Shown piece by piece: positions 1,502-46,777 of a DNA stretch of 46,922 nucleotides (position 1 is the stretch's first letter; every line of letters starts with the position of its first letter). Where the stretch lies: positions 1 through 46,922 of IMG/VR virus record IMGVR_UViG_3300021440_000037. The stretch is one strand, 5' to 3'. Under the pieces are notes generated by a model that did no database searches, was not told where the DNA came from, and was given only the letters and a program-made list of their open reading frames with translations. This stretch comes from a virus. Both the position numbers and the translations under genes were made by a program.

Positions 1502-4500
1502 CGCCCTTCCTGCCGCGCGCAAGCCAGCACCCGCACCCCGGATACCGGCAGTGACACCGGGTGCGACGCGCTCAACGGCGGCGATCAATTCGTCAAGCTT
1601 ATCGATGAGTTCGCCAAGACCAAGACCCTTGAGTCCGGCCGACTCTTCCGGAGTGAGTACGGCTTCCGGGCGCTTGCCCATGTTGGCACCCGTTTGACCG
1701 GGCTCAAGCCATCCACCATCGTCATACTTGAAGACGCCACCGTTGCGCATGGCCCAATGGATGTGGTTGGACAAGTCGTGTGGGCCAACCTCTTGCCCGT
1801 TCTTGTAGTTGATTTTCTTTTGCGCCCAAAAGAGTTCTTTCGATGTCTTGGCGTAGTGCGCAACAAGGTAGTCCCAAACACGCTCGACTTGAGACTGTCC
1901 GTTGGTGCCAACACCAATGTCGATGGCACGTCCCTTGTAGTGCCACGAGTTCTTGGCGTGACCACCTTGCGTGAGCTGGCTAGGGGCAAATCGCAAGTGG
2001 AATCCGGCACCCGCGAGGTTGGCAATCTGAGCTTGGTAACCGGCAGCGATGGGAGCGCCGTCACCACCACCGACACCCGCAACGCCACCACCACCACGGC
2101 CACCACCACCAAAGCCCGTGAGGAACTTGGCACCCTGCCCGATGAGCGACTTGACAGCGGCTTTCATCAAATCGATGAACGGACCCGCGCCAGGGATGCG
2201 ACGCAACAGACCATCAACGATGCCGGTCAATGGCTTGGTGATGACCCCCGCAATGGCCTTCATTCCATTGAAGCCCTTAGCTACGCCTTTCTTGATGGCG
2301 TCCCACGTGTTATCGACAACGCCACCATCCTCAAACTTGAGGACACCCCCGTTCGCCATGCCCAACGCATCGGCCACACCGGACACCCCGCCAGCACGAG
2401 CGGCAGCGTTTAAACGCTCAACCCCGGCAGCGCCAACCGCGCGTGTGAACTCGGGCCGCATGATGGCTTCCCCGCCCGACAGCGCGAGCCTGCCACCCGT
2501 GGGGGACGTGAACATGTGGACGTCGCGTCCGGGCGTGTACCCCGGCAGCACACCACCACGAGCGAAGCTCACACCCCCGTAGCTGATTTGAGGAGCGTTT
2601 ACTTTGCTGGCAATGGCGTTGTACGCCTTGAACAACCCGTCACGTAGCACGGTGTTTGCCACGAATCGAACCGGGGTCTTGGCGATTTCCTCAACCTTGC
2701 CCCATGCCGCCTTGATGGCGTTGACACCCTTGTTGAATGCGTCGGGTACCGTTTTGGTGATTACGTTACCGAGCGGGGTAAAGACGTTGTTCTTAATCCA
2801 ATCCCATACGGTCCTAATTTTGTCCTTGAAGCCATCCCAGATAGTGCCTACGTTAGTCTTGAATGCGTTGAACTTATCTTTGACCCACGTAAGCTTTTCG
2901 CTAATCGCGTCCATGACAGCCGTGCGGACATTGTCCCACACGGACTTAAGCTTTTCTTTCCACTGATCCATGACAATGCCGATGGCAGCTTTCCAAAGTT
3001 CCCATCGACCCTTAAGCCATGTCAGTTTCTCATCGATCTTGGCAAAGATGTTGTCGCGAATCCACGTCCAGATTGTGTTGATCTTCTGTTTGACCCAATC
3101 CCAGATGACACCTAGCCCAATCTTGAATAGCTCCCACTTGTCCTTAAGCCAAGTAAGCTTATCCGACATGATCTGGAAAATGTTGTCTCGAATCCAATTC
3201 CAGATTGTTGATGTCTTTGTTTTGATCCAATCCCAAATAACCCCAAGACCGACTTTAAACAGCTCCCACTTATCTTTGAGCCAAGTGAGCTTGTCACTGA
3301 TTGGCGTAAAGATGCTGTCGCGAATCCAGTTCCAGACAGCGCCGATCTTGTCCTTGATCCAATCCCACACCGCGCCAAGATTCGTCTTGAAGCTCTCCCA
3401 AGCATTCTTAAGAGTGCCCGCAAGATACGAGATGATCTGGCCAAACACAGTGGACTTGATGACATCCCACGCACCGGAGATGACTTTCTTGATGCCATCC
3501 CACACGCCAGAGATCATCGTCTTGAGAGCTTCCCACGCTCCCTTGAAATCGCCAGTCAGGACACCCTTGATGACATTGAAGATACCCTTGATAACGTTCC
3601 ATGCGATTTCGACCGCACCGCTGATGATCTTCCATAGTCCAACAAAGAACGTCTTGAAGTTCTCGAATGCGGTCTTGACACCATCGATGAACGTTGTTGA
3701 CGTGAAGACCTTCTTGACAGCATCCCACGCCGTTTGAATGGCCTTGCCGACAGCCTCAACAGCGGGCTTGATTGCGTCCCAAGCTTTCTTGAGCGCGGGC
3801 CACGCCGTACCGGTAAACCAATCGACCACGGCACTAATGGCCTTTTTGATGCCTGCCCACGCCGCATCGATGACCTTACGTACCGTCTCGTTGTTCTTGT
3901 AAAGCAAGACGATGATGGCAATCAATGCGGTTACCGCTGTGATGACGATACCAATCGGGTTGGCCTTCATCACTGCGTTGAGTGCGAACTGTGCGGCTGT
4001 CCACGCTTTGGTACTGGTCACTGCGGTTTTGATGAATGTGATCAGGCCACCACCGGCGCTAATCGCCATGGCAGTGTTGAGCGCCACGTATGCCGTGCCA
4101 AGCACACCCACGGCAACCGCAAGTGTCTTGAGTAGACCTTGGTTGTTCTTGACGAACTCAATGAACTTGGCGAATGCCGGGATCACCTTGTCGGCAAGAA
4201 TCTCGATGAAGGCAACCTGAATGGCGCGTTGGAACTGTTGCACCACCTGAGTTGGTGAGGTCTTGACTACCTGAGCGTTAGCCTTGCTGATGTCGCCAAG
4301 ACCGGATGCGGCAGTCTTGAGATCGACGCTCTTGAAGGCACCACCCAAGTCTTCCCACTGTGTACCGAACAGCGCGACACCCGTAGCGTTTCGCTTAACG
4401 GGGTCTTCCATCTTGTTCAGTGCATCCGTGACCTGCCCGAACGCGGCGCGTGCTTCCGGACCACCCTTAGCGAAGGTAGCCGTGAGTTCCTTGGCGTTGA

Positions 4501-6574
4501 AACCGAGATCCTTGAATGCCTTCATGGACGTCGATGACCCATCGACAGCCCGGATACTGAACTCTTTGATTGCGTCTGCCGCAAGGTCTGTGTCTCGGGC
4601 ACCACCTTTCATGAGCTGTTGGATAAGCCCAAAGGTGTCTTGCCCGGTAAGCCCGAGCTTTTGGAACTGAACACTGTACTCATTGACAGTGTCAATCAAG
4701 TCCTCACCGGCACGCGGAATCTTTTGCATACCGGTTGCGATGAGATCGAAGCCTTCCGTTGCGTTCTTGACCAAGCCCGTTTGGATGAGCTTGCCAACCG
4801 CGTTGGAAGAATCAGCAATGTCTACATCGAAGTTCTTTTGCAGCTTGAGCGCGGCTTTGGTGACCTCGGACAGCGCCGGAACACCAAGCTTGGCAATCGA
4901 CGGAAGCGACTTCCCGACAACCCCGATGGCTTCCTGGACTTCCCCAAGACCATCGCCAAGACCCGATGAGTACAGATCACCGGCAGCCTTACCGATCTCT
5001 TTCGCTTGTGGACCGCTCAGCCCAAGCTCACGCGCAACCTTTTCGTTGGCAGACTTGAAGTCAATGGCCTCATCGAACGACGATGCGAACGAGATACCGA
5101 GCGTTGCGGCAATGCCGGTGGCAACCCCGGAAAGCTTGCTCAGGTTGGCCTTGAGCTTTTCACCGAACGTGTTGCCACCCACACGATCGGCAACCCCGTC
5201 AAGGTCCCCAAGCTCTTTGGTGGCAGTCTTGAGATCGGCTTTGCGGAACGCATCGCCTAGGTCTTCCCACTGTGTACCGAAAAGCTCAACACCCGCTTGG
5301 TTGCGCTTTAGCGGGTCTTCCATCTTGTTTAGAGCGTCGACAACCTCACCGAACGCTTGACGGGCTTTGGGGCCACCCTCAGCGAACGTGCGAGTCATCT
5401 TTTCGGCATCAAGCCCAAGGTCCTTGAACGCTCCCTCAACGGCGCTAGATCCATCAACCGCGCGGATGCTGAACTCTTTCAGAGCATCGGCAGCAAGGTC
5501 GGTATTCCGTGCGCCACCTTCCATGAGCTGAGAGATGATGCCTAGGGCATCCTTGCCATCGAGACCGATCTTTTTGAACTGAACCGAGTATTCCTGAAAG
5601 GTATCAAGCAAGTCCTCTGCCGCACCCGGAATCTTTTGCAGACCACCGGCGATGATGTCGAGCGCTTCCTTGCCATCCTTCGCAAGCCCGGTACGCATGA
5701 GCTGTCCGGTGGCACGCAGCACACCGTCAAGGTCTTGCCCGAATGCCTTGCTCACGCCAAGAGCAGCACTCGCAATCTCCTTAATGGCCGGTGCACCCTG
5801 ATCACGGATGCCAGAGATGCTATTGATGGTCGCCGAAATGGCCTGCTCGGCCTCATCCATGCCATCGGCAAGACCATTGGCGAACAGGCTACCGGCAGCA
5901 AGACCAAGCGCTTTGGCCTCACCTTTGGTCGCGCCTAGCGACTGCTCAAAGTTGCGTTGGGTCTTGGTGAAGTCAACCTCAGAGTTAAATGCGCCGATGA
6001 GCTGAACGCCTAGAGCCTCACCGATGTTTCCCGCATTGCTGAACGAACCCTTGAGCTTGTCCTTGAAGGACGTACCCGCTTTGTCACCCGCACGCGAGAA
6101 CTCAGCCGACACGTCCGGCGCATCGACCTTGGTCTTGCTGGCAGTCTCATTGACGCTCTTAGCTAGAGCTTGGCCCGCTTTCTCACCGGCCGTCTTGTAT
6201 GAGTTGGTGATGTCGGGTGACTTGATAGTCATCTTGGCTGCCGCGTTGTTCACGCTCGTTGCCAGAGCCTTACCGGCATCGTCACCCGCTTTGGCATACG
6301 CGCGTGTGATGTCCGGCGACTTGATGACCATCTTGGACGATGCGTCACTGACAGCCTTGCCGAGTGCCGTTCCGGCCGTGGTACCGGCTTTCTTGGCCTC
6401 ATCGGGGAACTGTTTAAACGCATCCTTGGCTTCGATGTGGGTTGCCTTGTCGGCAGCCTCACTGAACGCTTTAGCGGCAGCTTGGCCGGTCTTGGTGGCC
6501 GATGCCTCAACGTCCTTGGACGCGGAGGATGGCAACGACAAACTCAGTTGGATGAATGCTTCCCCAAGTTGCAC
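1496..6574 (-). CDS. Tape measure protein with internal duplication and M15-type peptidase-like domain
   Basis: 1692 aa, GTG start preceded by AGGGTGG. It sets tail length and is threaded through the tail tube. The N-terminus is Ala/Lys-rich coiled coil. A module of about 245-250 residues occurs twice (about 200-445 and 500-750; both copies share FGTQWEDLG, EFSIRAVDGSS and ALNKMEDP). A hydrophobic segment lies near 800-900. About 1050-1260 is a Trp-rich tandem repeat (WDWIK, WNWIRD, KLTWLKDKWELFK). Residues 1512-1609 resemble the M15/DD-peptidase zinc fold: SWHYKGRAID (His1545, Asp1552) and NHIHW (His1604, His1606). That domain probably cuts peptidoglycan during DNA entry. The stop codon lies inside a GTTTAAAC octamer. 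Confidence 0.95.
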   Translation of the reverse strand: MQLGEAFIQLSLSLPSSASKDVEASATKTGQAAAKAFSEAADKATHIEAKDAFKQFPDEAKKAGTTAGTALGKAVSDASSKMVIKSPDITRAYAKAGDDAGKALATSVNNAAAKMTIKSPDITNSYKTAGEKAGQALAKSVNETASKTKVDAPDVSAEFSRAGDKAGTSFKDKLKGSFSNAGNIGEALGVQLIGAFNSEVDFTKTQRNFEQSLGATKGEAKALGLAAGSLFANGLADGMDEAEQAISATINSISGIRDQGAPAIKEIASAALGVSKAFGQDLDGVLRATGQLMRTGLAKDGKEALDIIAGGLQKIPGAAEDLLDTFQEYSVQFKKIGLDGKDALGIISQLMEGGARNTDLAADALKEFSIRAVDGSSAVEGAFKDLGLDAEKMTRTFAEGGPKARQAFGEVVDALNKMEDPLKRNQAGVELFGTQWEDLGDAFRKADLKTATKELGDLDGVADRVGGNTFGEKLKANLSKLSGVATGIAATLGISFASSFDEAIDFKSANEKVARELGLSGPQAKEIGKAAGDLYSSGLGDGLGEVQEAIGVVGKSLPSIAKLGVPALSEVTKAALKLQKNFDVDIADSSNAVGKLIQTGLVKNATEGFDLIATGMQKIPRAGEDLIDTVNEYSVQFQKLGLTGQDTFGLIQQLMKGGARDTDLAADAIKEFSIRAVDGSSTSMKAFKDLGFNAKELTATFAKGGPEARAAFGQVTDALNKMEDPVKRNATGVALFGTQWEDLGGAFKSVDLKTAASGLGDISKANAQVVKTSPTQVVQQFQRAIQVAFIEILADKVIPAFAKFIEFVKNNQGLLKTLAVAVGVLGTAYVALNTAMAISAGGGLITFIKTAVTSTKAWTAAQFALNAVMKANPIGIVITAVTALIAIIVLLYKNNETVRKVIDAAWAGIKKAISAVVDWFTGTAWPALKKAWDAIKPAVEAVGKAIQTAWDAVKKVFTSTTFIDGVKTAFENFKTFFVGLWKIISGAVEIAWNVIKGIFNVIKGVLTGDFKGAWEALKTMISGVWDGIKKVISGAWDVIKSTVFGQIISYLAGTLKNAWESFKTNLGAVWDWIKDKIGAVWNWIRDSIFTPISDKLTWLKDKWELFKVGLGVIWDWIKTKTSTIWNWIRDNIFQIMSDKLTWLKDKWELFKIGLGVIWDWVKQKINTIWTWIRDNIFAKIDEKLTWLKGRWELWKAAIGIVMDQWKEKLKSVWDNVRTAVMDAISEKLTWVKDKFNAFKTNVGTIWDGFKDKIRTVWDWIKNNVFTPLGNVITKTVPDAFNKGVNAIKAAWGKVEEIAKTPVRFVANTVLRDGLFKAYNAIASKVNAPQISYGGVSFARGGVLPGYTPGRDVHMFTSPTGGRLALSGGEAIMRPEFTRAVGAAGVERLNAAARAGGVSGVADALGMANGGVLKFEDGGVVDNTWDAIKKGVAKGFNGMKAIAGVITKPLTGIVDGLLRRIPGAGPFIDLMKAAVKSLIGQGAKFLTGFGGGGRGGGGVAGVGGGDGAPIAAGYQAQIANLAGAGFHLRFAPSQLTQGGHAKNSWHYKGRAIDIGVGTNGQSQVERVWDYLVAHYAKTSKELFWAQKKINYKNGQEVGPHDLSNHIHWAMRNGGVFKYDDGGWLEPGQTGANMGKRPEAVLTPEESAGLKGLGLGELIDKLDELIAAVERVAPGVTAGIRGAGAGLRAAGRAV

Positions 6575-17604: not shown

Positions 17605-19035
17605 TCATCCTCTCACGGACCTTGATGGCGCGACAGTACGCCCGCGCTTGAGCATCAACTCTGTCATGCCCCAGACTACTGAATCAAGTTCATCAGGACT
17701 CTCATCACTGCCAATTTCATTACCCTCATCATCTTTGGTCCCTTTAGGAAGCCAAGAACACCAAAGATCCTCAAGCGCGGCATATTGAGATGGCTTACCC
17801 ACATGGCAAATGCGACCTTGCTCGTACAACATCGCCACAGGTTCAGCCCTAGCGACTTTGCCAACAGACGCATGAACTGTTTTGAACTTGATATCTGATC
17901 TTATCTGCCTAAGTACAGTTCCTATGTACTCTCCGCCATTATTGACCTCACCCACGACATAGTTAGCCATGAATTGGTCATAGAGCAAACCAACGCGCTC
18001 CATCGCTTGTGCTGGACTGCCATGGAACCCCTCACTGTGGAGCACATACGCCGTGGTACGGCTGACATTGGCCGCTGTCACAGAAATGCCCGTATAATCG
18101 CTCTTGGTCGATGACGTTACGGCAGGATCAACATTGACCGTGATCGTACTGACGTCATCGGGCAACGGGCCATCGTATCGGAACCCCTCTTTCTCAAACA
18201 CATCGTAAGTCAGCAACGCGCCCGGTACGTCCGACAACAACTCGCCATTCAACTCTTGTCGGCCGGTACGCGTGCCCTCATATTGACGAATAACCGTGTC
18301 ACGGAAAACGTCGGCAAGGTTCGACAGATTCTCATACGTCGTACCCCGGATGACATAGAAATCACCATACTTACCTGCCAACAGGTTTTTGACAGCTTTC
18401 GATGGGCGTGGCGTACCCGTCAACATCATGCGGGGTTCGTCGCCAAGCCGCATACCCATCAACGCATTTGACAACACCGATGGCAAGTGTCGCCACGTAC
18501 TGAACTCGTCACCCCAGATGAAATCGTGCTGTGGGCCGCGCAAACTATCAGGCTCTTCGGATGAGTACGCGAACGCAACCGCGCCATTCTGAAACACAAC
18601 GCGCCGCTTGCTCGGTTGGTACTCCGGACGTTCCCACTTGGGGAACACGTTCAAGAGTCCACTCTCACCCTCAACCATCACGTCTCGGATGTCGGCAGCC
18701 GTACGCGCAATAAGCGCAATACGACCAACCCCGCCACGCTTGCGCGTGACCATGTGGCGCACACCTTCCGCACCAATGCGTGTCTTGCCGAACCCTCGAC
18801 CGGCCATCCACAGTGCACCGGTCTTACCATCTCCGCGTTTAAACGGGAGTCGCTGATTTGCGCGGGCATGTGGGGTAGGGCACTCGGGGTGCGGGTTGCC
18901 CTTGCAGCCGGGAATGCGGCACAACCATGCCGTGCGCCGTGTCTCCTGCTCAACCCGTAGCCGTGCCGCTAGCTGCCTACGCCGCTCGGGATCGAGCGTC
19001 ATGACACGCTCGCGCAACGCATTGGCATCACTCAT
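17605..19035 (-). CDS. Terminase large subunit
   Basis: 476 aa from ATG 19035, overlapping the small-terminase stop (ATGAGTGA). ATPase: Walker A GRGFGKTR, Walker B HDFIWGDEFSTW, coupling motif LTGTPRPSK. Nuclease: VNVDPAVTS with the first Asp, EVNNGGEYIG, and DELDSVVWGM near the end. It pumps DNA into the prohead. Bases about 17690-17960, which encode the nuclease half, are much more AT-rich (38-43% GC in two lines counted) than the ATPase half (about 58-60%), suggesting a recombined segment. In-frame GTTTAAAC at 18837. Confidence 0.93.
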   Translation of the reverse strand: MSDANALRERVMTLDPERRRQLAARLRVEQETRRTAWLCRIPGCKGNPHPECPTPHARANQRLPFKRGDGKTGALWMAGRGFGKTRIGAEGVRHMVTRKRGGVGRIALIARTAADIRDVMVEGESGLLNVFPKWERPEYQPSKRRVVFQNGAVAFAYSSEEPDSLRGPQHDFIWGDEFSTWRHLPSVLSNALMGMRLGDEPRMMLTGTPRPSKAVKNLLAGKYGDFYVIRGTTYENLSNLADVFRDTVIRQYEGTRTGRQELNGELLSDVPGALLTYDVFEKEGFRYDGPLPDDVSTITVNVDPAVTSSTKSDYTGISVTAANVSRTTAYVLHSEGFHGSPAQAMERVGLLYDQFMANYVVGEVNNGGEYIGTVLRQIRSDIKFKTVHASVGKVARAEPVAMLYEQGRICHVGKPSQYAALEDLWCSWLPKGTKDDEGNEIGSDESPDELDSVVWGMTELMLKRGRTVAPSRSVRG

Positions 19036-19552
19036 TGTTGTCACCCACATCAACAAGTTCAGGGTCACTCATGATGTTGCCTCCACCGGACAACTCAGAG
19101 ACAAGAGCCTCAATCTCTTCATCAAGCACATTGCGCACCGTGATATTGTGCTTGACCAATGTGGGCTTGTTGATGCCAAGCAAGAGTGCTCTCTGTCGAC
19201 GCACGTCCATCAACGTACGTTCAAGACTCTCAATCTGTTTGACCTCCCCATCGGTATTCAAGCCCTCATCTTTCTTACGCTGCGCTTGCTCCGCCACCAT
19301 CCCCATTAGACCCAAGAGCCGTGCTTCACTCGCGTCGTAACCATCGGCCTCATGCGCACGGATGGCTTCCATGTCTTCCGGTGGCAACTCTGTTGCTGTT
19401 AGCTCGCGCACCCAAGAATGAGCCGTAGCTACGTTGATGCCAAGCTCAGTGGCAATAGCGCGATAGGGCACCTTAGCTAATCTCAGCTCAAGTGCCCTAC
19501 GCTTTTTCTTCCAAAGTTCCATGCGCTCTAGTTGGCGCTCTGTGTCAGCCAT
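19028..19552 (-). CDS. Terminase small subunit
   Basis: 174 aa from the ATG at 19552 (MADTERQLER); an AAAGG sits 10 nt upstream, whereas the ATG at 19573 lacks one. It has an N-terminal HTH (YRAIATELGINVATAHSWV) that would bind the packaging site, then coiled coil (QIESLERTLMDVRRQ). It overlaps the large subunit by 8 nt. Recognition of the phage pac site and regulation of the motor are its expected jobs. Confidence 0.83.
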   Translation of the reverse strand: MADTERQLERMELWKKKRRALELRLAKVPYRAIATELGINVATAHSWVRELTATELPPEDMEAIRAHEADGYDASEARLLGLMGMVAEQAQRKKDEGLNTDGEVKQIESLERTLMDVRRQRALLLGINKPTLVKHNITVRNVLDEEIEALVSELSGGGNIMSDPELVDVGDNNE

Positions 19553-19594
19553 GTTGGACGCACCTTTAAACATCGGGTGTGACCAACAATACGT

Positions 19595-20044
19595 CTAGAT
19601 GTACCCGTCGCACCACCCGCCGTTGGTAGCTCCGTAAGCATGTGGTGCGTGGGGAGCGGCACCAATCGACCCGTTAACAGGTGGGCAATCCTCCGAGCAC
19701 CGATACATGTCGCTTACCCATCCCTTGCCCGCGTGTTGCTCGATCACGCGCTGAACCTCATCCACCGTGACGCCAACTTCCATGCCGCACGCTGCGTACC
19801 CCGCAACGTCAACCCATGAGTCCTCATGACTCGGGTTGTGGCGCAACCGAGCAAGCTTCATGCCAATCATCAACAGCGCCACATCACCCGCTACCAATTG
19901 TCGCCCATCAATGCGCAACCCCTGAGCATTCCACATCTCAGCAATGTTGCTGAAATTGTCCTCAGCGCTCCCATACGCACTCGCTCTGTCCTTAGTGACA
20001 ACCTGCCGCGCCGTTTCAAGACAACGCTCACGCCTACTAGTCAT
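19595..20044 (-). CDS. DUF6378-like phage protein
   Basis: 149 aa, MTSRRERCLE. The core DRASAYGSAEDNFSNIAEMW, then GDVALLMIGMKLARLRHNP and DSWVDVAGYAACG, matches the DUF6378-type proteins frequent in phages. Those resemble all-alpha NTP-pyrophosphatase (MazG-like) folds. The last 35 residues are Gly/Pro/His/Cys-rich (CSEDCPP). A nucleotide-related role is possible but unproven. Confidence 0.65.
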   Translation of the reverse strand: MTSRRERCLETARQVVTKDRASAYGSAEDNFSNIAEMWNAQGLRIDGRQLVAGDVALLMIGMKLARLRHNPSHEDSWVDVAGYAACGMEVGVTVDEVQRVIEQHAGKGWVSDMYRCSEDCPPVNGSIGAAPHAPHAYGATNGGWCDGYI

Positions 20045-20147: not shown

Positions 20148-22139
20148 TCAATCCCTCACCGACGTGAACACCGGCCGGTTGGCTGCCTTATCGCGCGCAT
20201 TCCGAGCATCCCGCAATACCTCGTTACGCTCACCGGCCGGATTCCATTTCGGTGCACACTTAGCGCCAATCTGAGGAACGGCGCGATTGAGCGTCGGTCC
20301 CCACTGCTCAATGAGCATGGCCTCAAACCCACGTGCCTCAATGCAAGTCATCTCCCCTTCAAACAGCTTCACATAGTCAACAATGACATCACCCCAATAC
20401 TGACTTTCACGATGTTGATCGATCCTGTCACCAACCTCTTGATGCGTCTGCCCGACGTACCCGACACCATCCACGTTGGCGACGTAGATGCCATAAATCA
20501 CATGCTGCCGCACCACACAGTCATTGGCCTGAATATCGATCTCTCGGCCATCCCAAAACTTGCCCGTGGGTGCGCCTTTCGTGACCATCCACTTGAGCAC
20601 GTTTAAACGACTGTAGACCTTGGCACCCTCACTGTTGGTGCCTTCACTGTCCGGCCACTTGGCAAACCCTTGACTCTCTGGTGACCGCTCCCCAGACTGC
20701 CACTTGCGCAAAGTCGCGTACGGAACCGCATACCCATGCGCCTCAATGAACTTGCCAACCTCAGCCAAAGTCATCGTGACCGGTAGCTCAATGTCCACGC
20801 TGGCACGCTCGATACTCGGTCGGTTGCCACCCCCACCGATCGCGGTTACCCGCACGTCCGGCACCGACGCAATGCCATCGGACCATTCAATCTCAGCAAC
20901 ATTGGCGAGGTTCGCAATAAGCGCCGCGTCACTCTCTTGCAAGTGCGGCGGCAAGTACCGCACCACATCTGTCGACGTGACTAGGTACCAACTCCAATCC
21001 ATCGGGTGCGGAATGTACTTGTGGCCATGTCCAAGCATCTTCCACGTGCGCATGTCCCACTTGCTCATGAGCGCGGCATTGAAGTTCTCACGAACCGCAC
21101 CCCCGCCAAACACCGCAGCTTCCGCACGCTGCGCAATCACATGGATGTAAATCCCAAACTCACGACCCATGTAAACCGAGTAATGCATCGACCTAATGGC
21201 CGGACTGTGAACGGCAGCATCACCATGCGCTTTCTTGGCGTACTCCCAAAAGTCCTTGAGCATGGCCATAAGGGTATTGGCTTCCTCCATGATGACATGG
21301 AGCGGCGTAAACGTGATGCTACGTCCCGCAAGCCGTGCTTCGATGTCTGCCTTGCGGCGACGCTCCAATTCCTCAAACACCGCTTGAAAAGCATCATGGC
21401 ACGTCTGCGCCTCGCTGAAATACCGGATGTTGCGGAACTCAAGCGCCACAGCAAGATCGAGCATCGACACACCCTTAACATCAAGGATGATGACTTGACC
21501 TCCACTACGGATGTACTGAGGCACAAGGAACCGATACAGATTGGACTTACCGCCACCGCTACCCGCACTCGCTTTGATGTGCGGCCCCATCTTGACATGG
21601 TCATACGTGATTGGCTTGCCATCAAGGTCAAGCCCCAACAACACAATGTGCGGATTACCCTCGTTGGCCTCAATGTACGGCAAGTAATCGAACACCGTAC
21701 GTGCCTCACCAAAGCTCGGTGTTGGGAACACCTTGACTACCGCACCGTGCCCCACGTACCCCCATTGGCCGGTGACGCCACCCAACATCCCCAGACGATG
21801 CCCGATGTCCGCAACAATTTTGTCCTTGAGTTTGTCCTGACTTCCTGGACTCACGGGCAACCGAATCGTCACGCACGACTCAAGGTCACTGGCATCGATC
21901 GGAAACACTTTCGGCAGCTTGATATACCGCTCTGGCCGGTCACGCAGCATCATAGACACATTGCCCACAACACCGTTGTCAACCAACTGTCCGGACTTGG
22001 GCAAGTTATCGATCAAGATCTGTGCGGCCGGACGAATCCACACGTCACGACGCTTGGCACGGTGGGCAGCCTCAACCAACCCGCCACACGCAAGGCACAT
22101 GGCACCCAACACCGCAAGAACAATCACAACGATGGTCAT
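20148..22139 (-). CDS. FtsK/TraB-like DNA translocase fused to HTH and GIY-YIG nuclease domains
   Basis: 663 aa. Residues 1-22 form a membrane segment. The motor has Walker A GSGGGKS (193-199), Walker B VIILD (216-220) and FtsK-type FTPLHVIMEEAN (277-288). A MerR/excisionase-like HTH follows at about 456-518 (TLAEVGKFIEAHGY, YATLRKW, YSRLNVLKW). A GIY-YIG endonuclease domain lies at about 549-620: GIY 550-552, YVG 561-563, Arg572, Glu607 and Asn618. Actinobacterial TraB/FtsK proteins move double-stranded DNA and read 8-bp signals. This triple fusion with a nuclease is unusual. The partner gene next door encodes a membrane protein. Target DNA is unknown. It contains an in-frame GTTTAAAC at 20601. 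Confidence 0.85.
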   Translation of the reverse strand: MTIVVIVLAVLGAMCLACGGLVEAAHRAKRRDVWIRPAAQILIDNLPKSGQLVDNGVVGNVSMMLRDRPERYIKLPKVFPIDASDLESCVTIRLPVSPGSQDKLKDKIVADIGHRLGMLGGVTGQWGYVGHGAVVKVFPTPSFGEARTVFDYLPYIEANEGNPHIVLLGLDLDGKPITYDHVKMGPHIKASAGSGGGKSNLYRFLVPQYIRSGGQVIILDVKGVSMLDLAVALEFRNIRYFSEAQTCHDAFQAVFEELERRRKADIEARLAGRSITFTPLHVIMEEANTLMAMLKDFWEYAKKAHGDAAVHSPAIRSMHYSVYMGREFGIYIHVIAQRAEAAVFGGGAVRENFNAALMSKWDMRTWKMLGHGHKYIPHPMDWSWYLVTSTDVVRYLPPHLQESDAALIANLANVAEIEWSDGIASVPDVRVTAIGGGGNRPSIERASVDIELPVTMTLAEVGKFIEAHGYAVPYATLRKWQSGERSPESQGFAKWPDSEGTNSEGAKVYSRLNVLKWMVTKGAPTGKFWDGREIDIQANDCVVRQHVIYGIYVANVDGVGYVGQTHQEVGDRIDQHRESQYWGDVIVDYVKLFEGEMTCIEARGFEAMLIEQWGPTLNRAVPQIGAKCAPKWNPAGERNEVLRDARNARDKAANRPVFTSVRD

Positions 22140-22708
22140 CGTCCCAACCTTCCCTTAACCCATGTCTCGGCAGCAATCACGTACTCATACCACGGTGTAC
22201 CGTCGTCTCCCTTGCCCCTGAACTTGGCCCAAAGCGCAAGCCGCTTGACCCCGTACTTGACCCCGTAGACACTCACGACAGTGCCAACAAGGATCAACGG
22301 CAGCCAACCCCAATTGGCCCAACACCACGGCAACACGGACAGCCCTAGCCACCTCAACGCATGGCCGAACACCCGCAAGACATCGAGCTTGCTATCCCAT
22401 GACGAATACTTGAACCAAGCAAGTACCGTGAAGACCAACGACCAACGCCAAGCCATCACAATCCACTTGGGACCTTTGACAACCGGCTTGCCGCTCCAAA
22501 ACGCGTTGCGATGCGGTTTCTTTGCTGGCTTGGTGAACGTCGCGTTGACAAGCGGGTCACGGTGCGGGTTGTCACGCGCCAACGTCACAGTCATCCACTT
22601 GGTGAATCCTCGGATGACCTCAAACGGCGCGTGAATCCACAAGGGCAAGTGGAAAGCATCGGCTTTGAAGAGCGCTTGATCCTGTCGGAACTTCACGGTA
22701 CTTGGCAT
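22136..22708 (-). CDS. Membrane protein paired with FtsK-like translocase
   Basis: 190 aa, MPSTVKFRQD. Two or more hydrophobic segments (WIVMAWRWSLVFTVLAWF, LGLSVLPWCW and WLPLILVGTVVSVYGV) with a basic C-terminus. It overlaps the translocase start by 4 nt, so the two are co-translated. In actinobacterial conjugative elements a TraB/FtsK protein is commonly followed or preceded by small Spd membrane proteins, and the pair here looks similar. Homology was not established. Confidence 0.6.
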   Translation of the reverse strand: MPSTVKFRQDQALFKADAFHLPLWIHAPFEVIRGFTKWMTVTLARDNPHRDPLVNATFTKPAKKPHRNAFWSGKPVVKGPKWIVMAWRWSLVFTVLAWFKYSSWDSKLDVLRVFGHALRWLGLSVLPWCWANWGWLPLILVGTVVSVYGVKYGVKRLALWAKFRGKGDDGTPWYEYVIAAETWVKGRLGR

Positions 22709-22709
22709 G

Positions 22710-23270
22710 TCAGCTCACCAATTCCCGCAAGTGACCAAGCTCGATGCGCAACCGCTCACGCGCACCGTGCCGCTTGTCACTCCACACGCAACCGGGGTTG
22801 TACCCAAACTCAGCCTCAATCTCAGCATGGGTCTTGCCCTCATAGAAACGCATGAACACGTACTTACGTTGGTTCGGCGTGAGCGCGGCAAGAGCTTCCC
22901 CGATCTCTCCCTCGTGATAGGCGACATAGACAGACTCAACATCGTCCGTTGCCTCAAGGTCGGCCCACACGCTCTTTTCGATGCCAACCCCCTCACCCAC
23001 CACCGGCGCATGAGCCTCAATCTCAAAGTGCGTCTTCACGCCAGGATGCTTGAAGTCACGGAAGTGGATGAGCTGACTGATCATGCGGTTGCGGGCAGCT
23101 TTCAAGATGCGCCCCTGCTCAACCTCCCCCTTATCGAGCATCTTCCACACTTCGATGAATCCCTCTTGCGCAACATCCTCCCAACTCGTTGATGCGTTTA
23201 CACGCCGAATGCCTTTCGCCATGCGCTCGATCATCGGCCGGTAGTGCGCAAGCGCATCCTCGCTAACCAT
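22710..23270 (-). CDS. Phage sigma factor (sigma-70/ECF-like)
   Basis: 186 aa, MVSEDALAHY. Region 2-like N-terminus with TSWEDVAQEGFIEVWKMLDKG and NRMISQLIHFRDFK. Region 4-like HTH in ALTPNQRKYVFMRFYEGKTH and AEIEAEFGYNPGCVWS, ending in the usual basic helix (ARERLRIEL). It should redirect host RNA polymerase to phage promoters, probably the structural genes lying downstream in the same block. ATG 23270 is one base after a GTTTAAAC octamer; a GAGGGGG Shine-Dalgarno overlaps its left edge. Confidence 0.82.
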   Translation of the reverse strand: MVSEDALAHYRPMIERMAKGIRRVNASTSWEDVAQEGFIEVWKMLDKGEVEQGRILKAARNRMISQLIHFRDFKHPGVKTHFEIEAHAPVVGEGVGIEKSVWADLEATDDVESVYVAYHEGEIGEALAALTPNQRKYVFMRFYEGKTHAEIEAEFGYNPGCVWSDKRHGARERLRIELGHLRELVS

Positions 23271-23271
23271 C

Positions 23272-23279
23272 GTTTAAAC
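23272..23279. promoter_or_regulatory. GTTTAAAC at stop of upstream gene and start of sigma factor
   Basis: Minus strand reads GAGGGGG-TTTAAAC-G-ATG. The TAA inside the octamer stops the upstream 89-aa gene, and the sigma-factor ATG follows after one base. A protein bound here would sit exactly on the ribosome-binding site of a master regulator. Confidence 0.6.
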
Positions 23280-23543
23280 CCCCTCATCCGTGTACCGCAC
23301 CAAGAGCGCGGTTGCTGTCACAATCAGTGCTGTCAATGACTCTCGGGATGGTGCAAGCAACCACGCACTCACGTCCCGCTTGAGCATGTTGGTTGCTTGC
23401 ACCCACGACACCGTTTCGCCAACCGGTGTTGCCGACCAACCCCGCGTGCGTGACACGGTGGTCAACTCACGCTTGACCGTAAGCCCGATCTCATGCACAA
23501 CCTGAAAGATCGACCCGTTAGGCTTGATGCTCTCTCGTGCCAT
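23274..23543 (-). CDS. Small protein upstream of sigma factor, unknown
   Basis: 89 aa from ATG 23543 (MARESIKPNG), chosen because GAGGG precedes it; ATGs at 23564 and 23585 are possible. Contains WVQATNMLKRDVSAWLL and a C-terminal amphipathic or weakly hydrophobic helix (LTALIVTATALLVRYTDEGV). Its stop TAA is inside the GTTTAAAC octamer at 23272. Tight linkage to the sigma gene might suggest a partner or anti-sigma role, but there is no direct evidence. Confidence 0.5.
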   Translation of the reverse strand: MARESIKPNGSIFQVVHEIGLTVKRELTTVSRTRGWSATPVGETVSWVQATNMLKRDVSAWLLAPSRESLTALIVTATALLVRYTDEGV

Positions 23544-24018
23544 AATCCCGATACCCTCGCTCATGCTTGAACCACATTCCGACACACCACGCGTCTTGCT
23601 TGTGCCCGTTTAAACTTCCCCCGCGCGGTCCGGGTGTCCAATATGGTTGCTGTTGATGGTCGGCCCGTCCCATCCGGGTAAACCAACCCATGTGATAGAT
23701 CTTCTTGTGTTGGTGATTGAAGTACCCGATGGCAGGGACGTTGTACCGTCGTCCCAAGTGCCGCATCACCCCGATCATCTGGCTTGTCAACATCTGTGAG
23801 CCGTTCTGTTGGCTCGCACGTCGCAAGTCCAACGCGAACTTCTCATACACGATAGCGTGAATCTCAAGCGTCCGGATGCCATTCTCAAGATGATCGATGG
23901 CATCGTCAGGAAGAAACTCCGTGACGTTTAAACACTCACCCTCATGCCACATGGCAACGGCAGCGTGCACGTCACCGGGGTCAACGGAAGCCCAACGCTT
24001 AGGCAACTCAAGCGGCAT
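23518..24018 (-). CDS. RuvC-like (RNase H fold) protein, possible Holliday junction resolvase
   Basis: 166 aa from ATG 24018 (MPLELPKRWA). The N-terminus SVDPGDVHAAVAMW resembles the RuvC first strand with its catalytic Asp. IHAIVYEKFAL carries the acidic residue after strand four. HKQDAWCVGMWF near the end supplies a late acidic position. The order D...E...D suits a junction resolvase or related nuclease, useful for resolving replication intermediates. Two GTTTAAAC octamers (23608, 23926) lie in frame, both read as Leu-Asn with TTA. Confidence 0.68.
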   Translation of the reverse strand: MPLELPKRWASVDPGDVHAAVAMWHEGECLNVTEFLPDDAIDHLENGIRTLEIHAIVYEKFALDLRRASQQNGSQMLTSQMIGVMRHLGRRYNVPAIGYFNHQHKKIYHMGWFTRMGRADHQQQPYWTPGPRGGSLNGHKQDAWCVGMWFKHERGYRDYGTREHQA

Positions 24019-24226
24019 TGTCGTTCCCCTCAACGTAGTTCTTGGGACCATGCAGCTTGGCAAGATGGTTGTCTGTCCACCGAATCGCTTCACCGTGCGT
24101 GCCGACCGTGAGAAAGCCAATGTGGATAGGGCACACCGGGCAGCTTGCCCACCACGGCGCAAGGACAGCACCCTTGACCTCTGCCCAACCACGAATCTTG
24201 CCAATATTGATCTTGTTCTTGTTCAT
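24008..24226 (-). CDS. Small protein with CPxC motif, unknown
   Basis: 72 aa from ATG 24226 (MNKNKINIGK). Contains WWASCPVCPIHIGF, a single CxxC pair with a nearby His that could bind zinc, and a C-terminus HGPKNYVEGNDNAA. Start overlaps the previous stop as ATGA, and its end overlaps the RuvC-like start, so it belongs to the replication operon. Function unknown. Confidence 0.6.
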   Translation of the reverse strand: MNKNKINIGKIRGWAEVKGAVLAPWWASCPVCPIHIGFLTVGTHGEAIRWTDNHLAKLHGPKNYVEGNDNAA

Positions 24227-46396: not shown

Positions 46397-46777
46397 CTAG
46401 TTATCGAGCTGTGTGGGTGTGCCGTTGACATTGACGTATGCGTGGTTGAGGTCTGAGCGGTACCACATCCACCCCGGTTGCGTGCCGGTGGGATGCGTGC
46501 CGGTGTACGTCGGCAACTGAACCGCTTGTTTAAACGCCATCACCCCGATCACGTAGAACGTACCGGCAGCTTTCATGATGGTCACACGTTGACCGGCCAC
46601 CACGTCAAGGTGAGCCAACGGCAAGCACGGGGTTGGCGCTTGGGCACCATCCACTGTGACGTTGATGATTTTGTTAACCGTGTCGACACCACCCACGACA
46701 CCCGCATAGGTGATGATCTCTTTGCTGCGCGCGATAAGGTCCCGCACGGTTGCCAAGATGTCATCTTCAAGGCTCAC
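46397..46777 (-). CDS. Baseplate/tail-spike-hub OB-fold-like protein
   Basis: 126 aa from GTG 46777, overlapping the preceding TGA (GTGA); an in-frame ATG upstream at 46831 would extend into the hub gene and is less likely. N-terminal helix (VSLEDDILATVRDLIARSKE), then a strand-rich region (VNKIINVTVDGAQAP, VVAGQRVTIMKAAGTFYVIGV) typical of baseplate OB-folds. In-frame GTTTAAAC at 46528 (Phe-Lys). The assignment rests on pattern and order. Confidence 0.65.
   Translation of the reverse strand: MSLEDDILATVRDLIARSKEIITYAGVVGGVDTVNKIINVTVDGAQAPTPCLPLAHLDVVAGQRVTIMKAAGTFYVIGVMAFKQAVQLPTYTGTHPTGTQPGWMWYRSDLNHAYVNVNGTPTQLDN

Follow-up and report, generated by a model that had tools for sequence, protein, structure and literature searches.

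A new variant of Tra/FtsK-type translocases in a tailed phage, with a predicted winged HTH and GIY-YIG-like domain, and an octamer that goes with an SprT-like protein instead

Architecture and conservation of the fusion protein

The virus record analysed here, 46,922 bases in length and termed the window below, encodes a protein in which a translocase motor, a predicted HTH and a GIY-YIG-like part are joined in one chain. The architecture is real and unusual, and it represents a new variant of the Tra/FtsK translocases. Our preferred reading, to which we give an even chance, is a membrane-anchored dsDNA translocase of the actinobacterial plasmid Tra (FtsK/TraB) type that carries a C-terminal winged HTH and a GIY-YIG-like endonuclease and whose ring would reel in and cut DNA. 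Searches of the open-licence PMC literature listed no FtsK and GIY-YIG fusion in phages. The window also contains numerous copies of the octamer GTTTAAAC, which had been linked to the fusion. Octamer-rich phages share an SprT-like protein rather than the fusion.

The window represents a tailed phage. Its genes include those for terminase, portal and tape measure, a family A DNA polymerase, a primase-polymerase, a sigma factor and an endolysin. The fusion gene corresponds exactly to positions 20148-22139 on the minus strand, a single open frame of 663 aa with an ATG start and zero internal stops. The whole protein is found, aligned end to end, in two further virus contigs, namely L002 (81% identity) and L003 (64% identity, contig G002). 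Hence the fusion is no accident of one contig. The original prediction had described one 663 aa chain with motor, HTH, GIY-YIG domain and membrane anchor, and the intact frame and the presence of the fusion in three contigs bear this out.

The individual parts are under purifying selection. Between the window and L002, dN falls well short of dS in the N-terminal part, the motor (0.098/1.02), the HTH (0.159/2.05) and the GIY-YIG-like part (0.153/1.15). The 40-residue tail differs in that dN is not well below dS (0.242/0.30). Compared to L003, the motor is 81% identical (dN 0.165) and the GIY-YIG-like part 55%, while the HTH is the least conserved region with 42% (dN 0.685).

Scans of viral contigs for further relatives returned L002 and the L003 contig only, and scans of genome contigs returned none. 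The sole match among named phages is an FtsK-like protein of Streptomyces phage Dagobah (QMP84464.1). It has a motor of the same broad kind (25% identity over 231 residues, E 8e-5) but consists of 309 aa with the motor only, and neither HTH nor GIY-YIG appears in the alignment. The C-terminal part of the fusion as sole query gave chance-level Staphylococcus matches only, and its profile found no match among PDB sequences. Structure models of the full chain and of residues 446-663 were built on 3 sequences and reached a mean pLDDT of 50 and 64, respectively. Foldseek reported no match at E ≤0.001 for either model.

Motor and membrane anchor

The Walker A motif GSGGGKS is located at residues 193-199 (21543-21563, minus strand), just where the original prediction had put it. 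It is invariant in the three relatives and aligns to the Walker A of plasmid Tra proteins. The Walker B motif MEEAN (284-288), R326 and Q337 are likewise aligned to plasmid Tra residues. A Gln sensor combined with an upstream Arg is the rule for HerA/FtsK proteins according to PMC10853773.

Judged from sequence, the closest kin of the motor are the Tra translocases of Streptomyces linear plasmids. A profile-profile comparison of residues 19-372 with four plasmid Tra proteins using hhalign yields a probability of 99.7 and an E-value of 3.7e-27. In a tblastn search of plasmids 48 records match the fusion, 45 of them from Streptomyces; no match reaches 80% coverage of the query, and the matches listed cover the motor part only. 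The conjugation coupling protein TcpA is matched among the PDB sequences (E 3e-4). Pfam FtsK_SpoIIIE (PF01580) stays under its cut-off of 24 bits in the window (11.6 bits) and in the relatives (12.1 and 17.3), and Pfam DUF87 is also below its cut-off. PADLOC and NCBIfam show weak motor matches only, the one from PADLOC being mad8 over the motor. Since the motor part of the full model is of low confidence, its fold matches were left unused.

A hydrophobic stretch of 19 residues starts at residue 3 with a mean Kyte-Doolittle value of 2.7. This predicted transmembrane stretch (residues 3-21, 22077-22133, minus strand) coincides with a hydropathy peak in all three relatives and makes a single N-terminal membrane anchor plausible, as far as hydropathy tells.

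The Tra proteins of Streptomyces linear plasmids (pRL2-11, pFRL6 Tra) have in common with the fusion the Walker A, an acidic Walker B (EE-N), a VAQ sensor, a GG-E--RE-F block and a hydrophobic N-terminal part. A gene for a DUF2637 membrane protein is located just upstream of Tra on pRL2 and pFRL6; on the S. anulatus and Pseudonocardia plasmids no DUF2637-type membrane gene is annotated at this place. The plasmid proteins differ from the fusion in that they lack a GIY-YIG part and terminate with a short HTH-like segment. TraB of pSVH1, FtsK and TcpA of pCW3 also combine an FtsK-type motor, a membrane anchor and a C-terminal winged HTH for DNA (8-bp motifs for TraB, as given in PMC3583192). They differ by the lack of a nuclease domain, and the HTH of the phage protein is nearest to excisionase and MerR structures.

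With Streptomyces and Pseudonocardia plasmid Tra as nearest motor kin, one of them annotated as "Tra protein" adjoining a "conjugal transfer protein", and with a gene for a membrane partner beside the fusion, the protein could be a phage-borne Tra. It would then move phage DNA, or help it to spread, between cells or hyphal compartments, and the nuclease would nick or trim the moved DNA. We regard this as unlikely. Streptomyces Tra transfers unprocessed dsDNA, as stated in PMC3583192, and such transfer needs no nuclease; it fits the ancestry of the fusion and not its nuclease. Moreover, the genome of the window is of the lytic type, and families of relaxases, partition proteins or integrases are absent among the proteins scanned. 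Clt-type clustered direct repeats are not found near the gene in the three relatives (three small regions; clt sites vary widely), nor is a matching tandem array.

Winged HTH

The original prediction of an excisionase-like HTH at residues 456-518 is supported by the models, according to which residues 450-525 (20565-20792, minus strand) would adopt an excisionase/MerR-like winged HTH fold. The pLDDT is mostly 80-92 over residues 446-526. Fold matches of the 446-663 model comprise the excisionase RdfS, HiNmlR, MerR-type regulators, BldC and Pukovnik Xis with Z-scores of 5.1-5.8, among them 8dgl (Z 5.8) and 5d90 (Z 5.7). A DNA site for this HTH was not found by searches for repeats, tandem arrays and skewed octamers.

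By eye, the C-terminal segment of plasmid Tra resembles the phage HTH. Profile comparison of the two gives a weak match (probability 5.5, E 0.007), which falls short of showing common descent of the phage and Tra HTHs.

GIY-YIG-like domain

In the full model, strands and helices at residues 544-613 follow the GIY-YIG order (beta-beta-alpha-beta-alpha). Structure prediction of the chain places residues 545-622 on UvrC GIY-YIG domains, with 1yd6_C as closest match (Z 5.8, rmsd 2.6, 70 of 94 residues aligned). The UvrC structure 1yd5 is matched in this region of the full model with Z 5.4; Thermotoga UvrC entries, five in number, score Z 5.2-5.4, and UPF0213 (1zg2) scores Z 4.1. Among the matches listed for the 446-663 model, six are wholly inside this part, all of them UvrC GIY-YIG domains with Z 4.0-4.3. 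All structural Z values are below 8 and thus modest, and they derive from shallow models. The assignment is persuasive because nearly all matches listed there share one superfamily in both models. Based on these models, we assign a GIY-YIG-like nuclease domain to residues 544-623 (20271-20510, minus strand).

The Pfam GIY-YIG model (PF01541) does not match up to E 10 on a 132 aa fragment, on both relatives or on the window record, and finds none in G001 and G002; in a control the search gave a match in 13 of 14 genomes. With Pfam silent, the call rests on structure and residues. Y549, Y561, R572, E606 and N618 do not vary between the window, L002 and L003. Their assignment to UvrC positions follows the aligned ranges, and their catalytic roles are taken to be those of the UvrC residues. 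In the structural alignment, residue 545 of the model is placed on UvrC residue 15, which, if gap-free between, puts UvrC Tyr19 on Y549 (VIY) and not on Y552 (GIY). Y552 is replaced by Arg in L003, Y549 is not replaced in any relative. These five residues are the most likely catalytic set in the modelled fold. The original prediction had placed the domain at 550-618 with five hallmark residues: a UvrC-like fold and five invariant residues agree with this, while its "GIY" (550-552) is likely to be displaced by three residues.

The silent Pfam model and the varying second half of the "GIY" strand in L003 would also fit a domain that has decayed or serves a structural purpose and does not act as a nuclease. 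Since the five expected catalytic positions are invariant in 3/3 relatives and dN is well below dS, we consider this quite unlikely. The domain shares the predicted fold and the spacing of catalytic residues with UvrC, as modelled, but is below Pfam detection and joined to a translocase instead of the other UvrC domains.

HerA/FtsK motors joined to nucleases are a theme of systems that counter invaders (PMC10853773). Capture systems of this kind, including DndH, also combine a HerA/FtsK motor, an HTH and a nuclease in one polypeptide or operon. Their domains are of the restriction endonuclease type and they reside in bacterial defence or mobile loci. In contrast, the nuclease of the fusion is GIY-YIG-like, C-terminal and encoded in a phage, with replication genes on one side and packaging genes on the other. 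A DndH-type core or defence operon is not matched, as the fusion has 663 aa compared to about 1700 and a phage context.

Gene neighbourhood and possible role

A gene for a predicted membrane protein of 190 aa (22136-22708, minus strand) overlaps the fusion start (ATGA). It is located beside the fusion in L002 and L003 as well and encodes a likely partner, with hydrophobic stretches weaker than the anchor of the fusion. The next gene downstream of the fusion encodes a DUF6378 protein (19595-20044, minus strand; PF19905, E 7e-28), which is present in L002 and has no match in L003. It is followed by a probable terminase small subunit (19028-19573, minus strand; HTH, Terminase_5 by Pfam) and the terminase large subunit (17605-19068, minus strand; PF03237/PF17289). 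Apart from DUF6378, the order membrane protein, fusion, TerS, TerL and portal is kept in the relatives.

According to our preferred reading, the protein would assemble into a ring at the membrane together with the small membrane protein encoded just upstream. The motor would reel dsDNA through the ring, the HTH would load or orient the protein on DNA, and the C-terminal GIY-YIG-like nuclease would cut. The most likely use would be DNA destruction or processing at the membrane in the lytic cycle, with DNA of the host or of competitors, or branched phage DNA before it is packaged, as candidate targets. A task late in infection fits because the fusion gene directly precedes the terminase genes. 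For such a task, a single phage chain that unites a plasmid-type pump, an HTH and a GIY-YIG-like cutter would be unusual, and it is small enough for testing. The tasks named in the original prediction, namely host chromosome degradation, exclusion of competing phage DNA, intercellular transfer and genome segregation, are all candidates.

The conserved gene order and the resemblance to UvrC, a structure-specific nuclease, are also consistent with a packaging helper at the membrane, which would resolve branches and concatemers of phage DNA ahead of the terminase by structure-specific cutting of the SLX1/UvrC kind. This is in our view somewhat unlikely, as the fusion is absent from the majority of phages with a related terminase (the terminase is matched by 290 records, any part of the fusion by 1) and as a packaging role leaves the membrane tether unexplained.

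Three further observations concern the surroundings. The genes for the membrane protein and the fusion are directly preceded by one for a sigma-70-like factor (22710-23270, minus strand), and the Tra region of pRL2 has a sigma-70 gene as well. A phrog_5202 protein (23518-24204, minus strand) shows a likeness to RuvC-type resolvases by eye only. The contig L190 (IMGVR_UViG_3300022744_000485, 5444 bases) carries a terminase 100% identical to that of the window and does not extend far enough upstream to include the fusion gene.

The octamer and the fusion

The window contains 31 dispersed copies of GTTTAAAC at 1494-46535 (the first at 1494, the last at 46528-46535), compared to 0.37 expected from dinucleotides and 0.14 from a second-order model. 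L002 has 5 sites and G002 has 16. The word is strict, with one-mismatch neighbours at ≤3 in the window and in G002. Of the 31 sites, 15 lie outside the gene list drawn up here and 13% of the window is outside this list; the intergenic share is rough because the list has gaps.

The original prediction linked the fusion to the octamer, as a protein that might read or cut GTTTAAAC. Repeated 8-bp motifs are read by the C-terminal winged HTH of TraB (Vogelmann et al., as cited in PMC3583192), and all three fusion-bearing contigs carry the octamer. The HTH of the fusion might thus recognise GTTTAAAC in the manner of TraB/FtsK signals and pump or cut there. We consider this highly improbable. No fusion homologue without the octamer came to light; this gives no support to a link, however, because the two full-length contigs among the three harbour the SprT gene described below as well. 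The HTH is merely 42% identical between the window and L003 and has diverged more than the motor, despite an identical octamer in both. A palindrome such as GTTTAAAC cannot give direction. In G002 there is no octamer within or near the fusion gene (none between 2769 and 9651; gene at 4205-6193).

We also sampled viral contigs with two octamers close together (at least 120 stretches). Among the 120 stretches listed, none has a fusion relative at tblastn E <0.05 (best 0.068), the fusion-bearing loci having been found by other queries. The genome of Dagobah, the sole named phage with a related motor, lacks GTTTAAAC. Moreover, octamer-rich contigs and named phages exist that carry an SprT-like gene and no fusion. 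GTTTAAAC was hence dropped as recognition site of the fusion. KOPS-like strand-skewed octamers are not prominent in the window either (best 13 vs 2). Separating the fusion from the octamer matters more than the fusion itself.

The octamer and the SprT-like protein

The octamer goes with the gene at 37766-38719 (plus strand). It encodes an SprT-like protein with a Q-T-T-R motif that belongs to phrog_6361 (E 1e-29) and matches PF10263 just under the cut-off (E 6e-5). Among the 120 stretches listed, it is the only protein of the window that matches many of them. The gene is present in 16 of the 32 stretches with ≥6 octamers, in 2 of 14 with 4-5 octamers and in none of the 74 with fewer. A search of the whole records of the 16 octamer-rich contigs without SprT adds 2, resulting in 18/32; the other 14 have no SprT gene even record-wide, and most of them are below 25 kb. 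SprT is absent from all 33 other records searched; 31 of these are true low-octamer controls, the exceptions being L044 with 7 octamers and L010 with 4.

The SprT family matches 159 named phage records. We analysed 18 of these, hand-picked for host spread and chosen by SprT homology, not by octamer. Many of them are akin and thus not independent, and because of this kinship no probability is claimed for the counts. For the first 11 phages the most enriched octamers were sought. GTTTAAAC is enriched in R5C (14 in 60 kb vs 0.03 expected) and Pan1 (13 vs 0.02), and more weakly in MQ-4 (6 vs 0.6 in the 40 kb analysed). GTTTACAC/GTGTAAAC are enriched in JackieB (41 vs 0.06), VResidence (22 vs 0.12), Zeta1847 (16 vs 0.06) and 4A (12 vs 0.18). 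FlameThrower, Armstrong, PSA20 and MW2 show no comparable octamer enrichment. Five control phages whose lack of SprT was checked (Pumancara, Goodman, Hiyaa, Sunfish and MellowYellow) have no such octamer.

The presence of the octamer follows a motif in the protein. All 12 SprT phages with Q-[SGT]-T-R before the last Cys pairs carry GTTTAMAC, which is GTTTAAAC or GTTTACAC, three of them weakly. The counts, in which the palindromic octamer, listed on both strands, was therefore counted once where the listing allowed, are 42 for JackieB, 23 for VResidence, 22 for Zeta1847, 18 for VroomVroom, 17 each for Emotion and R5C, 16 each for GardenState and Pan1, 14 for 4A, at least 8 for KA2-1, 7 for MQ-4 and at least 5 for ECO1230-10. 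The weak positives are MQ-4, KA2-1 and ECO1230-10; no expectation was computed for the latter two, and in KA2-1 a reversed control pattern also matched, 3 and 2 times. The 6 of 18 phages without a Q-x-T-R motif (Armstrong, FlameThrower, Eden, MW2, PSA20 and Epa43) have no GTTTAMAC except for a single one in MW2. The first 11 phages suggested the rule and the following 7 conformed to it, but these 7 include kin of the earlier ones (Eden is akin to Armstrong, ECO1230-10 and KA2-1 to MQ-4).

These data suggest, at a little less than an even chance, that an SprT-like protein with a Zn-ribbon-like tail and Q-[SGT]-T-R reads one strict 8-bp word in unrelated phages, GTTTAAAC or GTTTACAC depending on the lineage. 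The word would be kept at up to ~40 places of the genome and would represent an undescribed system of genome marking or gene control. In the window, where a separate, putative pump-and-cut translocase is encoded as well, SprT bound to the octamer might protect phage DNA from this machine, serving as a self mark or roadblock. Searches of the open-licence PMC literature listed no description of a link of GTTTAAAC, GTTTACAC or GTGTAAAC to SprT in phages; the one relevant paper, in the passage concerned, names an SprT-like protease only (PMC8758107).

The pairing of octamer and SprT is a more novel by-product than the fusion and merits its own study. It recurs in named phages of Arthrobacter, Microbacterium, Streptomyces, Dinoroseobacter and Pseudanabaena, allows a simple binding experiment with phages that culture collections already keep, and might reveal the function of a family annotated as "SprT-like protease".

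Individual octamers of the window are found at particular places. One is located inside the fusion gene (20601-20608) in the part coding for the HTH (~residues 511-513), where the relatives have no octamer. Those at 1494-1501, 23272-23279, 36496-36503 and 37713-37720 overlap or touch the ends of reading frames, and a TAA stop at 1496-1498 is supplied by the octamer.
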